Positions 1 through 3,167 of a stretch of DNA of 64,000 nt are shown piece by piece (position 1 is the first letter of the stretch; the number at the start of each line of letters is the position of its first letter). The position numbers were made by a program, and so were the translations under genes. This stretch comes from Hyphomicrobium sp. CS1BSMeth3 (GTDB lineage: Bacteria; Pseudomonadota; Alphaproteobacteria; Rhizobiales; Hyphomicrobiaceae), in assembly GCF_900117415.1 (NCBI RefSeq), contig NZ_FPEI01000006.1, forward strand, positions 1,240,001-1,304,000. Direction: 5' to 3'. Below the pieces are notes generated by a model that ran no database searches, was not told where the DNA came from, and saw only the letters and a program-made list of their open reading frames with translations.

Positions 1-329
1 CGTTCGTATTGGTCATCTCAATCTCCAGAGTTGTGTTCTGTGCCCTTTGCACGATCGGAGCATCTCGCAACAACGTCCGGCGCGCTGTCGCCTAGGGCAC
101 GAGGCGAGAGAATCTTGCGGCTGCTTGTTGGAGGCGGTCGGACGGCAGCCAAAGCCCATGCCCGCACGTGCGATGGAGCTCCGCGCAGATGCTGCTTCCG
201 CCTGGGAACGTCCACTTCAACTTCGCGGCGTGCCCTGAGGGACAGCGCACACGAAGCGCAAACGACATTGTGGACGCGTGGCCGATTGGTCGGACACGCA
301 CTGAAACTCACACCCGAAAGGAAATGACT
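1..329. other. 5' flank of the peptide genes, no gene seen
   Basis: No convincing coding frame lies here. The open frames on both strands are low-complexity, overlap one another and lack ribosome sites. The promoter of the downstream peptide genes must lie here or beyond the window edge; a short dyad CCGA-TTGG-TCGG sits about 45 bases before the first peptide start, but no clear -35/-10 pair could be picked out. Confidence 0.5.
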
Positions 330-473
330 ATGAACACGAAGGACACGATTGGTACGCAGTCGCAGCCCCAGGAGCTCTCCGCGTCGGAGATCCAGCAGGT
401 TTCCGGCGGCATTGCCTGGTTCCCGATCATCATGGCGGTCGCGCGCTTCGCCTTCTCGCAAGCCAAGCATTAG
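330..473 (+). CDS. double-glycine leader peptide A (bacteriocin-like precursor)
   Basis: A 47-residue precursor. Residues 1-27 form a leader ending LSASEIQQVSGG, the classical double-glycine signal removed by the C39 peptidase domain of peptide-exporting ABC transporters (or the related HlyD/ABC systems). The predicted mature peptide is 20 residues, IAWFPIIMAVARFAFSQAKH: hydrophobic and aromatic with a weakly basic tail, compatible with membrane insertion. I chose the second of two in-frame ATGs because AAAGGA (317-322) is 7 bases before it and only 1 base before ATG 324. A related precursor follows at 596. No exporter or immunity protein is visible in the window. Leader class is well supported by the motif; antimicrobial versus signalling role is inference. 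Confidence 0.75.
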   Translation: MNTKDTIGTQSQPQELSASEIQQVSGGIAWFPIIMAVARFAFSQAKH

Positions 474-478
474 TTCAT

Positions 479-504
479 CGAGCAGGCCAGTCATGGCCTG
501 CTCG
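479..504 (+). promoter_or_regulatory. perfect 11-bp stem-loop between the two peptide genes
   Basis: CGAGCAGGCCA, loop GTCA, TGGCCTGCTCG starts 5 bases after the stop of peptide A. There is no uridine run after it (AATACCTTT follows), so it is more likely an mRNA-stabilising or attenuating hairpin setting the ratio of the two peptides than a full terminator. Confidence 0.6.
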
Positions 505-595
505 AATACCTTTCAGACAATGAGTTCGAGATCGCCCAAGCCGGCGATGGATGGGCGAAGAGAAAGATCAACCAGAATTCAGTTGGAGAACTTGC

Positions 596-751
596 ATGCA
601 GACGAACGATCAATCGCGACGCCAGAAGGCCGAGGCGTGTCGCACGCTCTCCGCGATGGAGGTCGCCAGCGTTAGCGGTGGGGTGGTGATGATACCGACG
701 GCTCTTCTCTATCCGATCTACATCGCCGGCAGCCGCAGGACGCAGAAATAG
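596..751 (+). CDS. double-glycine leader peptide B (bacteriocin-like precursor)
   Basis: A 51-residue precursor whose leader (residues 1-29) ends LSAMEVASVSGG, matching peptide A at L, S, A, E, V, S, G and G. The predicted mature part has 22 residues, starts VVMIPTALLYPIYIAG and ends with a basic tail SRRTQK. The start is set by GGAG (585-588), 7 bases before the ATG; the longer upstream frame (from 551) has no site. Two short hydrophobic peptides with the same leader type side by side resemble class IIb two-peptide bacteriocins, but no GxxxG motif pair is seen, so a two-peptide pore is only a possibility. The single Cys (position 15) is in the leader. Confidence 0.75.
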   Translation: MQTNDQSRRQKAEACRTLSAMEVASVSGGVVMIPTALLYPIYIAGSRRTQK

Positions 752-781
752 CGCGCCCGCCAGTCCAGGAGGCAATCCATC

Positions 782-816
782 AAGCGGCGGGGCGGCATCA
801 GGCTGCGCCGCCGCTT
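782..816. terminator. hairpin between convergent peptide B and AraC genes
   Basis: AAGCGGCGG (782-790) and CCGCCGCTT (808-816) form a 9-bp stem with a 17-base loop, lying between the stop of peptide B and the stop of the convergent regulator. The position suggests a bidirectional terminator; there is no strong T run on either side. Confidence 0.5.
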
Positions 817-828
817 CGTCTGTTGCCC

Positions 829-1776
829 TCAGAGAGAGGAGATTTGATTGCCCAGCCGCCACTGGCTTGGAGACATCGCAAAACGGGCCCGAAATGCCTT
901 ATTGAAGTGAGACAGATCGTTGAAGCCCCAACGGTAGGCGATCGTCGAGATGCTATCGCCCTGCTTGAATGGGTCCTTCAAATCCTTGCCGCACGCTTCC
1001 AGACGGCACTCCAGAAGCCAGCGACCGAAGCTCTTCCCACTCTGCTGAAAGCGTAGCTGAAGCGTGCGCACGGAAATGCCGAGATGCGAGGCCACGAGCG
1101 ACGGGGAAAGCTCGGGATTATGCAAATGCTGCCGGCAGAAAGTGAGAATTGACTGCATCATCAGTTCCGGAGCGAGGCTGTTCGGCCTGACTTCCCGCGC
1201 ACTCGCCAGAGTCAAAAGATTGCAGAGGTTCTCGACCATCAGGACGGCTTCGCTCGTGCTGAGATCGTCATCGCCTCCCGTGAGATGAAGCAAGTGCCGC
1301 CGCGCGAGATCGCTGTAAGGCCCCGAGAGCGTGAGCTTGCGGCAAGATCGGGCGTCCTTCATCCAGGGCGCGCGCTGGCTGAGCATTTCGCGCGGAACTA
1401 TCGCCAGGATGCGATGGACCGAGTCGGGAAAGCCCACACGGAACGGCCGTTCGCTGTCGACAATGGCGATCTCCCCGGGTTCAAGGCAGAAGCTCTCCTC
1501 TCCCTGAGTGATATTGCTGCGACCCCGGATCTGGAGGCTGACCAGGTAGCTGGCTTCAGGCGCTGCCGCGACGTGGCAATTGTTGCGTACGATCCCGTGA
1601 GAGGTGGACTCGAATGAAGCCAACCGCAAGTTGCCGAAAGTTCTGCTGGCAATGCTCGCCGAGAAGCCGTTCGCCGGATGCTCGGTCGACACGCTGAGCA
1701 CTGTCTGACACACCACCTCTCGCCAGTACGAGAAACGCTCCCGCGACTGCACAGTAGCCGTCGACCAAGTGGCCAT
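829..1776 (-). CDS. AraC-family transcriptional regulator
   Basis: A 315-residue regulator. The N-terminal about 200 residues match the AraC-binding-like (cupin-type) sensor fold seen in OruR/FeaR-like members. The C-terminal about 105 residues carry the two helix-turn-helix motifs: the first around VASHLGISVRTLQLRFQQ, the second around ISTIAYRWGFNDLSHFNKAF with the usual FR..F...P end. The length is normal for this subgroup. It converges on the peptide genes and shares their terminator hairpin; no other gene lies within 250 bases of its start. That makes control of the peptides possible but unproven. The effector cannot be read from the sequence. Confidence 0.88.
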   Translation of the reverse strand: MATWSTATVQSRERFSYWREVVCQTVLSVSTEHPANGFSASIASRTFGNLRLASFESTSHGIVRNNCHVAAAPEASYLVSLQIRGRSNITQGEESFCLEPGEIAIVDSERPFRVGFPDSVHRILAIVPREMLSQRAPWMKDARSCRKLTLSGPYSDLARRHLLHLTGGDDDLSTSEAVLMVENLCNLLTLASAREVRPNSLAPELMMQSILTFCRQHLHNPELSPSLVASHLGISVRTLQLRFQQSGKSFGRWLLECRLEACGKDLKDPFKQGDSISTIAYRWGFNDLSHFNKAFRARFAMSPSQWRLGNQISSL

Positions 1777-2027
1777 GCCGCTCTCTCGGGCTCGTTTGCC
1801 CGCTCCCGATCATCAATTGCGCTCTTGACCAATTCGGCTTGCGCTCCTGGCCAAGACAATATTGTTGCGCCCTTGTTATGCGGGCGCCTCGCAGTGGCTG
1901 GATGCTCCGTAGGGAACGCTCCTCGCAAGAATGAGCGGCCGTATCGGGCAAATTCGAACGGGAATCAACTCCGCAATACAGGTTTGATGCCTGTTTGCAT
2001 TGATCCGGTGCCTGAAGGAGAGTGCGC

Positions 2028-3167
2028 GTGCACGACCAAGAAGCCCTTTCCAACTTAGTCGGCAAAATCTACGACGCCTCGCTGGACCCCGCTCTTTGGG
2101 CCGAAACGCTTGAGGAAACAAAGCATTTCGTAAGGGGAATGGCCGCGGCTGTATTCTGCAAAGATCCCAAAAGCAAGACTGGCGGCATTTACTATGACGA
2201 CGGTGGCATCTCGCCCCATTTCAAGAGGATTTACTTCGAGAAGTATATCAAATTGGACCCCATGTCGGCCGGACACTACTTCGCGAAGATCGAGGAGCCG
2301 ATCAGCACGGCGGACCTTATCGAGTACGATGAATTCGTCGAGACGCGGTTCTATCAGGAGTGGGCCCGTCCACAGGGCGTCGTGGACTTCGTAAGTGCAT
2401 CACTCGACAAATCCTCGACCACCACGTCGATGTTTGGTGTGTTCCGCCATGAGCGGGATGGCCTGGTTGACGACGCCACGCGCCAGCGCATGCGCCTCAT
2501 CGTTCCTCATATCCGGCGCGCGCTACTCGTCAGCCGGACAATAGAAATGCGAACCGCCGAGGCCGCTACGCTGGCAACCGCGCTCGACGGACTGAACGCA
2601 GGCCTCTTTCTCGTCGATGATAGCGCTCGCGTCGTCCATGCCAATGCCAGCGCCCGATCGATGCTGGCTGATGGCACGGTTCTGCGTGCGCGTGGCGGCA
2701 AGCTCGTTGCGCGAGAAGCCCGCGCGCAGCAGGCTCTCAGCGAGGTGTTCGCCGCATCGGGGCAAGGTGATGCCGCTGTCGGCCTGAAGGGAATTGCCGT
2801 CCCCATGAGTGCCACGAGCGGCGATCAGTACGTCGCGCACGTGCTTCCTCTCACTGGGGGCGCACGACGTCGCGCGGGCGGCTCCCATGCGGCGGCGGCT
2901 GCCATGTTCTTGCACAGCGTGTCGGCGGAAGCACCGGCGCCGGCGGAGGCCATCGCCAAGGCCTTCAGCCTCACGCCAGGCGAGCTTCGTGTCCTTCTGA
3001 CGATCGTGCAGGTGAGCGGAGTGGCGGAAGCGGCAGAAGCCCTGGGGATCGGGGAAGCGACGGTCAAGACACATCTTCACCGCCTGTTTCAGAAGACGGG
3101 CGCCGGGCGACAGGCAGAGCTCGTCAGGCTTGTCGAGCGCTTCAGCAGTCCTCTGGCCGCAGTCTAA
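2028..3167 (+). CDS. LuxR-type helix-turn-helix regulator with PAS-like sensor
   Basis: A 379-residue regulator. The last about 67 residues (FSLTPGELRVLLTIVQVSG..., with IGEATVKTHLHRLFQKTG as recognition region) are a LuxR/GerE helix-turn-helix. Residues around 185-280 look like a PAS fold (LNAGLFLVDDSARVVHANAS). The N-terminal about 170 residues are a putative ligand-sensing segment. No receiver Asp pocket is present, so it is not a standard response regulator. I use GTG 2028 rather than GTG 2022 because AAGGAG (2015-2020) is 7 bases before the former. It converges with the Crp/Fnr gene. Targets are unknown. Confidence 0.85.
   Translation: MHDQEALSNLVGKIYDASLDPALWAETLEETKHFVRGMAAAVFCKDPKSKTGGIYYDDGGISPHFKRIYFEKYIKLDPMSAGHYFAKIEEPISTADLIEYDEFVETRFYQEWARPQGVVDFVSASLDKSSTTTSMFGVFRHERDGLVDDATRQRMRLIVPHIRRALLVSRTIEMRTAEAATLATALDGLNAGLFLVDDSARVVHANASARSMLADGTVLRARGGKLVAREARAQQALSEVFAASGQGDAAVGLKGIAVPMSATSGDQYVAHVLPLTGGARRRAGGSHAAAAAMFLHSVSAEAPAPAEAIAKAFSLTPGELRVLLTIVQVSGVAEAAEALGIGEATVKTHLHRLFQKTGAGRQAELVRLVERFSSPLAAV

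Follow-up and report, generated by a model that had tools for sequence, protein, structure and literature searches.

Two short double-glycine precursor genes of Hyphomicrobium sp. CS1BSMeth3 probably belong to the substrate set of a C39 exporter encoded with a CyaC-like membrane protein

We found that two small genes of Hyphomicrobium sp. CS1BSMeth3, here designated pA and pB, most likely encode precursors of short secreted peptides. These precursors, two of about eight in all, would be cut and exported by a C39 peptidase-containing ABC exporter encoded upstream. The stretch of DNA analysed (the window) comprises 64,000 nucleotides (G000:C2:1240001-1304000), and features upstream of it are given as positions of a 19-kb stretch, L002, with each window position being equal to the L002 position minus 16000. 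We directly observed the open frames and their leaders, a nearby exporter gene whose product has the catalytic triad, a leader common to six linked precursors, and an association between leader and exporter in other genomes.

The pA gene (330..473, plus strand) encodes 47 amino acids, with a leader that ends in QVSGG (LSASEIQQVSGG) and a core of 20 residues (IAWFPIIMAVARFAFSQAKH). The pB gene (596..751, plus strand), which starts 122 bp past pA, encodes 51 amino acids, with a leader that ends in ASVSGG (LSAMEVASVSGG) and a core of 22 residues (VVMIPTALLYPIYIAGSRRTQK). Purine runs resembling ribosome sites precede the ATGs of pA and pB (AAAGGA and GGAG, respectively). A hairpin of 12 pairs (478..505, plus strand; -24.9 kcal/mol) lies between the two genes and was equalled in stability by none of 200 shuffled sequences. 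A second hairpin 3' of pB (782..816, plus strand; -29.5 kcal/mol) consists of a 9-bp outer and a 5-bp inner stem and was equalled by 2 of 200 shuffles; it was weaker when folded as the minus strand, with 16 of 200 shuffles being as stable. The original prediction, made from the letters of the window alone, had described two double-glycine precursors of 47 and 51 residues, each with its own ribosome site, together with one hairpin between the genes and a closing 9-bp hairpin, and the present analysis confirmed all of these elements where they had been placed, with the first hairpin folding with 12 pairs. We rejected the hairpins as intrinsic terminators, given that none was called in window positions 1-2100. 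Rfam yielded no match at the gathering threshold in positions 1-3000.

The exporter genes are located just outside the window. An HlyD adaptor gene (L002:11767-13011, plus strand; PF13437, E 2e-17) and a C39-ABC exporter gene (L002:13008-15152, plus strand; PF03412, PF00664, and PF00005 far over cut-off) overlap by 4 bp and together occupy L002:11767-15152, which begins 4.2 kb and ends 0.85 kb before the window, with the C39 peptidase match (PF03412) at C2:1237050 (E 3e-36) being the sole one in the genome. The original prediction saw no exporter in view because the window edge falls between the exporter and pA, and the search that it proposed of the flank beyond position 1 for C39/ABC or HlyD genes uncovered both. 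The HlyD gene is preceded by a gene for a membrane protein, FdxMem (L002:10197-11717, plus strand). Four additional precursor genes are present in this flank: pE (L002:9594-9803, plus strand), pF (L002:9870-10046, plus strand), pC (L002:15487-15687, minus strand), and pD (L002:15726-16016, minus strand), the last of which is divergent from pA, has its first codons at window positions 1..16, and encodes 96 amino acids with a leader that ends in EEVSGA and a Gly-rich hydrophobic core. The order of the locus is pE, pF, FdxMem, HlyD, and exporter on the plus strand, pC and pD on the minus strand, and pA and pB on the plus strand. The six local precursors, which lie within about 7 kb, have in common the leader pattern L(S/T/G)xxE(I/V/L)xx(V/T)x-G(G/A), with the leader ending in GG for pA, pB, and pC and in GA for pD, pE, and pF.

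Two further likely precursors were detected about 0.7 Mb away, at C2:502683 (E 4e-5) and, with a weaker match, at C2:529940 (E 0.03). Given that only one C39 exporter is encoded in the genome, and that four more precursors flank it and two more are likely at a distance, pA and pB are likely to be two of about eight substrates that a single type I secretion system handles, rather than the lone pair that had been predicted. Processing by a C39 exporter, as originally proposed, was supported with regard to the appearance of the precursors, by their leaders, by the neighbouring exporter, and by this exporter carrying the sole C39 domain of the genome; cleavage itself is what we infer from the sequences. 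The cores of pC and pE have a common tail (score 57, p 0.002, which was the lowest value that the test could give). A homologue of pF is located upstream of FdxMem in the Hyphomicrobium metagenome-assembled genome (MAG) L023 (E 1e-5), and the precursor at C2:502683 has a homologue in the putatively Bradyrhizobium-like genome G906 (L126), with the shared tail GGQNDxAQxFQxIxxQLT. The best NCBIfam match of the exporter was TIGR03796, which relates it to NHLP/Nif11-type exporters, but the score was 487 bits compared with a cut-off of 853, and the precursors carry a short double-glycine leader and no long NHLP leader; an NHLP-type bacteriocin system is not supported by this score. PADLOC matched the exporter alone (mad3 and mad8, with the best stretches in the ATPase part).

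The clade of exporter cassettes is small. It was found in six genomes, with the order FdxMem-HlyD-exporter being maintained in all six. Close relatives of the exporter (74-79%) were those of the Hyphomicrobium MAG L023 (same coordinates as G059), of the Nitrobacter MAGs L024 (same contig as in G618) and L025, of the Hyphomicrobiales MAG L026 (same as in G604), and of G527 (L147, at a contig end, with 215 residues compared). An exporter tree grouped the five full-length members of the clade with support of 100/100 and placed L042 of Brevundimonas as a weakly supported sister (84/57). No FdxMem gene was found beside L042, L083, L084, and L085 or the short L005, which are the next exporter relatives. 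In the four other genomes of the genus, HlyD had no match at E <= 1e-60, and the exporter matched at best with E 4e-38 to 5e-48, values typical of ordinary ABC transporters; among 103 genomes of the family, the same HlyD threshold was reached in two, the present genome and G059. This patchy spread suggests horizontal transfer. The G+C content of the locus was 0.58-0.65 in 1-kb steps (window mean, 0.626), and foreign origin on the basis of base composition was rejected, there being no sharp step indicative of a recent island. No tRNA gene was found in L002. On the 3' side of the cassette in L023 (L023:12915-16266) lie genes that, by eye, we take to encode a sulfate-binding-protein-like protein, a serine acetyltransferase-like protein, and an SrpI-type encapsulin shell.

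Comparison of the exporter with plasmids (E <= 1e-100) yielded 860 records, all with <60% identity and 390 of them from Escherichia. An exporter with 45% identity is encoded on a Rhizobium rhizogenes plasmid, where the adjoining precursor is annotated as "Blp family class II bacteriocin." The original remark that such genes are too short for most gene calls holds only in part, because the annotation of this precursor shows that they are called at times.

Precursors accompany the cassette in several of the related genomes. G059, which contributed training sequences, has two beside its cassette and two on another contig, and one or two were detected in each of G527, G604, and G618. Because it was through its precursors that G527 came to light, it provides no independent test, whereas G604 and G618 proved to be the genomes of the exporter relatives L026 and L024; L025 corresponded to none of the genomes searched. 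A pattern search detected no precursor beside the exporter in L024 to L026, and inspection by eye gave the same result for L026. In family f35, three of the five genomes that match a model of pA, pB, and L077 carry the same exporter cassette.

We also compared the distribution of leaders with that of C39 domains across 397 genomes of the order. A C39 domain is by no means uncommon in the order, being present in 125 of the 397 genomes, which were the same set as that searched for leaders as far as can be judged from the genomes listed; by hand count, 49 of the 397 had a match at E <= 1.5e-30, a threshold chosen after the list had been seen. A wider leader model (A1), which holds the six leaders of the present locus, matched seven of the 397 genomes (E <= 0.001), all of which were among the 49 with a strong C39 match. 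With the two training genomes removed, the association was observed in five of five genomes, with p values of ~2e-5, or of 0.003 if any C39 match is counted, that treat genomes as independent, G240 and G345 being of one genus. Comparison of coordinates showed the leader to be within 3 kb of a C39 gene in four of these five genomes (G149, G240, G345, and G472) and not in G460.

Orthologues of pA and pB were found neither in 384 other genomes of the class nor, at E <= 1, in plasmids. The pA core showed weak similarity to FIWIP-type cores of putatively Bradyrhizobium-like genomes (p 0.02-0.04, uncorrected over 25 comparisons); for the pB core, the best such peptide gave p 0.07, with nothing lower beyond pA. 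In the genus of G460, 15 of 265 genomes matched a four-peptide model that itself holds two G460 peptides, and five of these 15 had similar FIWI-type cores by eye. The ratio dN/dS was 0.33-0.68 in six pairs of these G460-genus relatives, not of pA and pB themselves, with five of the pairs having <=13 changes. Use of the present type of exporter by G460 was rejected, its C39 exporters being just 25-31% identical. Separately, precursors of four genomes of family f35 (L094, L127, L088, L093, and L107) were seen to have a recurring core after the double glycine, (M/L)KW...VIDARGGQ...F.T.

The C39 domain of the exporter retains the catalytic triad (Cys25, His98, and Asp114), and the conserved Gln located six residues before Cys is replaced by Ala (Ala19). 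In an alignment of 40 distinct rows, this position was occupied by Ala in the six cassette sequences, by Ser in L042 of Brevundimonas, and by Gln in 28 other sequences with an intact triad, with L085 also having Gln according to another read-out; L040, L019, L046, and L142 were set aside on account of a stop at Cys, an uncovered position, or an incomplete triad. In a phmmer search, the domain aligned with LahT150 over residues 10-138 (6mpz, E 9e-19) and with PCAT1. The peptidase domain is alignable with those of the LahT/PCAT1 type and differs from them in the presence of Ala19 at the position of LahT Gln21. This Gln of LahT was proposed to stabilise the oxyanion, but it is 4.3 A away in the LahT structure and its role has been doubted (PMC6363468), and the conserved Gln was described in the PCAT1 paper as a possible oxyanion donor (PMC6959990). 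For CvaB, the mutants Q26A and Q26N were reported to secrete colicin V almost normally, whereas charged replacements resulted in much less secretion (PMC3335142, Table 4). Given that CvaB Q26A secretes at a near-normal level, the replacement of Gln by Ala, which is natural and clade-wide in the sequences examined, would be compatible with activity. It could also lower proteolysis, which would count against our preferred explanation. The colicin V system CvaA-CvaB likewise combines a C39-ABC exporter that has a Cys-His-Asp triad with an adaptor and a double-glycine precursor, whereas the present system has a natural Ala, many precursors, an additional redox-type membrane protein, and no recognised immunity gene. 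As a separate observation, the C39 exporter gene of an uncultured Sphingomonas MAG has TGA at the codon for the catalytic Cys (L040:1806), and the reading frame continues to either side of it within the stretch examined; an assembly error, decay, or a recoded residue are possible explanations.

To characterise FdxMem, we combined sequence comparison with structure models. Residues 1-358 matched the N-terminal part of rhizobial adenylate/guanylate cyclases in 165 plasmid records (E <= 1e-30), with ~40% identity over ~70% of FdxMem in 19 of the best 20 of these records. The rhizobial cyclase L152 was 34% identical over the whole alignment, and His28/32/69/106/148/154 and Cys289/295/298/333 are kept in both proteins. 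L152 has Fer2 and Guanylate_cyc domains; FdxMem matches Fer2 over cut-off, and the PF00211 cyclase domain, present in L152, was not found in it. A profile of six FdxMem proteins matched solved [2Fe-2S] ferredoxins at residues 262-345 (3ah7, E 6e-10). The first AlphaFold model of FdxMem was poor in the ferredoxin part (pLDDT < 50), so that its interpretation was limited to both ends, and a Foldseek search with this model yielded no match at E <= 0.001. FdxMem gave a fold match to Wolinella FrdC (Z 13.2, rmsd 4.7, 200 residues). Given that a helical-bundle fold can be a common arrangement, the sequence match to cyclases is stronger evidence than is this fold match. The CyaC protein of S. meliloti has been described as having a six-helix domain, with two heme B groups that are oxidised or reduced by ubiquinone, and a [2Fe-2S] cluster (PMC10463352). 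Judged from its sequence, FdxMem keeps a CyaC-type input module of diheme-b-like helices and a [2Fe-2S] domain, with heme binding being predicted. CyaC-type cyclases, compared through their rhizobial relative L152, thus have a helix bundle with conserved His residues and a [2Fe-2S] domain as does FdxMem, which differs from them in possessing a domain resembling the C-terminal domain of RseB instead of the cyclase domain.

This C-terminal domain of FdxMem, when folded alone, was modelled with a pLDDT of 83. Residues 392-490 matched RseB C-terminal domains with Z values of 9.1-9.2 (rmsd 2.8-3.2, 92-95 residues), compared with 7.1 for the next unrelated row, and the best Foldseek E value for RseB was 6e-4. 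The putative output domain is RseB-like in its modelled fold, and, given that the Z values are modestly above those of unrelated folds, this term is a statement about fold alone. The RseB/MucB C-terminal domain has a similar fold, but the identity is 12% with no Pfam match, and in FdxMem the domain is fused behind a membrane redox module. A further FdxMem match was noted on a plasmid of Phyllobacterium zundukense (L151), where query residues 11-480 were covered in two pieces at 33% with no annotated gene and with no C39 exporter annotated nearby. It is adjoined by the same kinds of neighbours as is the L152 cyclase gene, and for this reason is perhaps a broken cyclase.

A convergent AraC-family gene, as originally predicted, is present downstream of pB (829..1776, minus strand). 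Its product matched the Pfam families HTH_18 and AraC_binding_2 and was FeaR-like with 171.7 bits, the NCBIfam cut-off being 199. No tblastn match to it (E <= 1e-5) was obtained in the other loci compared, many of which are just about 3 kb long, nor did the remaining four genomes of the genus contain one at E <= 1e-40; as a cognate regulator it was set aside on these grounds. The gene is probably a neighbour outside the system, with a link being conceivable in this one genome. Divergent from it, at window positions 2022-3167 (plus strand), we noted by eye a LuxR-type regulator gene. Over 118 residues, the N-terminal part of its product has 27% identity to a frame located near a precursor in L123 (E 6e-7). 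This likeness perhaps reflects just a shared domain.

With regard to the function of the cores, membrane-active peptides of the microcin or bacteriocin type appear somewhat more likely than signals. The small size, hydrophobicity, and basic tails of the predicted cores would fit membrane action, whereas the presence of many unrelated cores and of no recognised immunity gene fits signalling or self-directed roles. A more specific reading, which we regard as fairly unlikely, is that pA and pB each supply one component of a two-peptide (class IIb) bacteriocin, which would kill relatives by joint membrane permeabilisation. The two genes are adjacent and of similar size, and the cores are short, hydrophobic, and basic (GRAVY of 0.93 and 0.46 and charge of +2 and +3 for pA and pB, respectively), each with Pro at core position 5. 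Both leaders also matched the NCBIfam class IIb (cerein 7B) model TIGR03949, but weakly, with 13.6 bits for pA and 15.1 bits for pB falling below the family cut-off of 21.5, and none of the precursors matched a bacteriocin family model, or any Pfam family, over cut-off. The cores are moreover very short for class IIb, the similarity between them reached just p 0.024-0.034, and inspection by eye of the listed frames revealed nothing resembling an immunity gene between pA and pB or next to them, such genes being hard to recognise. A RiPP assignment was rejected, with pA scoring 17.3 bits for the XyeA cyclophane model (cut-off, 33) and no radical-SAM gene being recognised by eye.

Secreted signals (peptide pheromones) with a receptor encoded elsewhere are, in our estimation, a rather improbable identity for the cores. 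Cell-to-cell communication is also among the functions of double-glycine leaders and PCAT exporters (PMC7018657), the presence of several precursors with unrelated cores and no recognised immunity gene is consistent with such a role, and the top NCBIfam match of pA was the BlpC pheromone model, far below cut-off (17.4 of 70 bits). Inspection by eye of the open frames listed for the flank, however, revealed no histidine kinase or peptide receptor, and no AraC homologue and just a weak, partial LuxR match were found beside other precursors. It is unlikely that the peptides act on the producer itself, in autolysis or biofilm control, rather than on rivals. Precedents for such action are the gonococcal Nap peptides, which promote autolysis and have no detectable antimicrobial activity (PMC11798529), and Synechococcus double-glycine proteins, which take part in biofilm development (PMC4997328); the gene for a redox-sensor-like protein directly before the exporter genes is also in keeping with it.

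The precursors differed in how far they exceeded chance expectation. A leader matrix trained on 14 leaders, all from other genomes, gave a score of 23.2 for pA, whereas in 40 Markov-simulated windows of 64 kb the highest score was 16.9 and the average 10.8. Codon usage was best in the called frame of six for all six local precursors, and among 318 shadow-frame windows, none reached the codon score of pA and 6.9% reached that of pC. A second leader model (A2), built without any sequence of this genome, was applied to the whole genome (E <= 10, 6.0 Mb searched) and returned 11 places, with pE in first place, followed in order by the 502-kb precursor, pC, and pF, and with pA ranking seventh (E 0.30); pB and pD were missed. 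Given that pB is not above chance according to the leader models, the case for this gene rests on its being next to pA, on its leader and ribosome site, and on its codon usage. That pB is a chance open frame, with pA and the upstream precursors alone being real, would agree with its matrix score of 12.3, which is inside the simulated null, and with its omission by model A2, but is very unlikely in view of its full LSAxEVxxVSGG pattern, its start 122 bp after pA with a ribosome site of its own, and the finding that only 2.8% of the shadow windows reach its codon usage.

On the basis of these results, we propose that the cytosolic C39 domain would bind the leader LSxxE(I/V)xxVSGG and cut after the double glycine (GG or GA across the set), and that the ABC-HlyD pair would then export the basic, hydrophobic cores of 20 and 22 residues, presumably through an outer-membrane channel supplied from elsewhere. 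The co-encoded CyaC-like FdxMem may report quinone or redox state to the system. We put forward only tentatively, as a possible though doubtful extension, that FdxMem senses the ubiquinone pool via two b hemes and a [2Fe-2S] cluster, and that its RseB-like domain switches the expression, processing, or export of a large double-glycine set handled by a C39 clade with Ala in place of Gln at the oxyanion site.

Type I export of double-glycine peptides by C39 exporters is known, and the FdxMem partner and the Ala-bearing active site are variant features. Bacteriocin clusters with C39 and HlyD proteins have been described in cyanobacteria (PMC3140520). Rhizobium, Bradyrhizobium, Alphaproteobacteria, and Hyphomicrobiales are absent from the main text of a screen for microcin candidates of plant-associated bacteria (PMC13174018), and the titles and abstract openings of the open-licence literature yielded no description of a C39/HlyD/bacteriocin cassette with a ferredoxin, cytochrome b, quinone, or redox sensor. 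Two orphan small genes have here become part of an export system for which the exporter, the substrates, and a candidate control protein are named, so that cleavage and secretion are directly testable. A C39 active site that naturally carries Ala also provides a ready test of the role of the conserved Gln. If FdxMem does report the redox state of quinone, the secretion of peptides by soil and rhizosphere bacteria would be coupled to respiration through this system.
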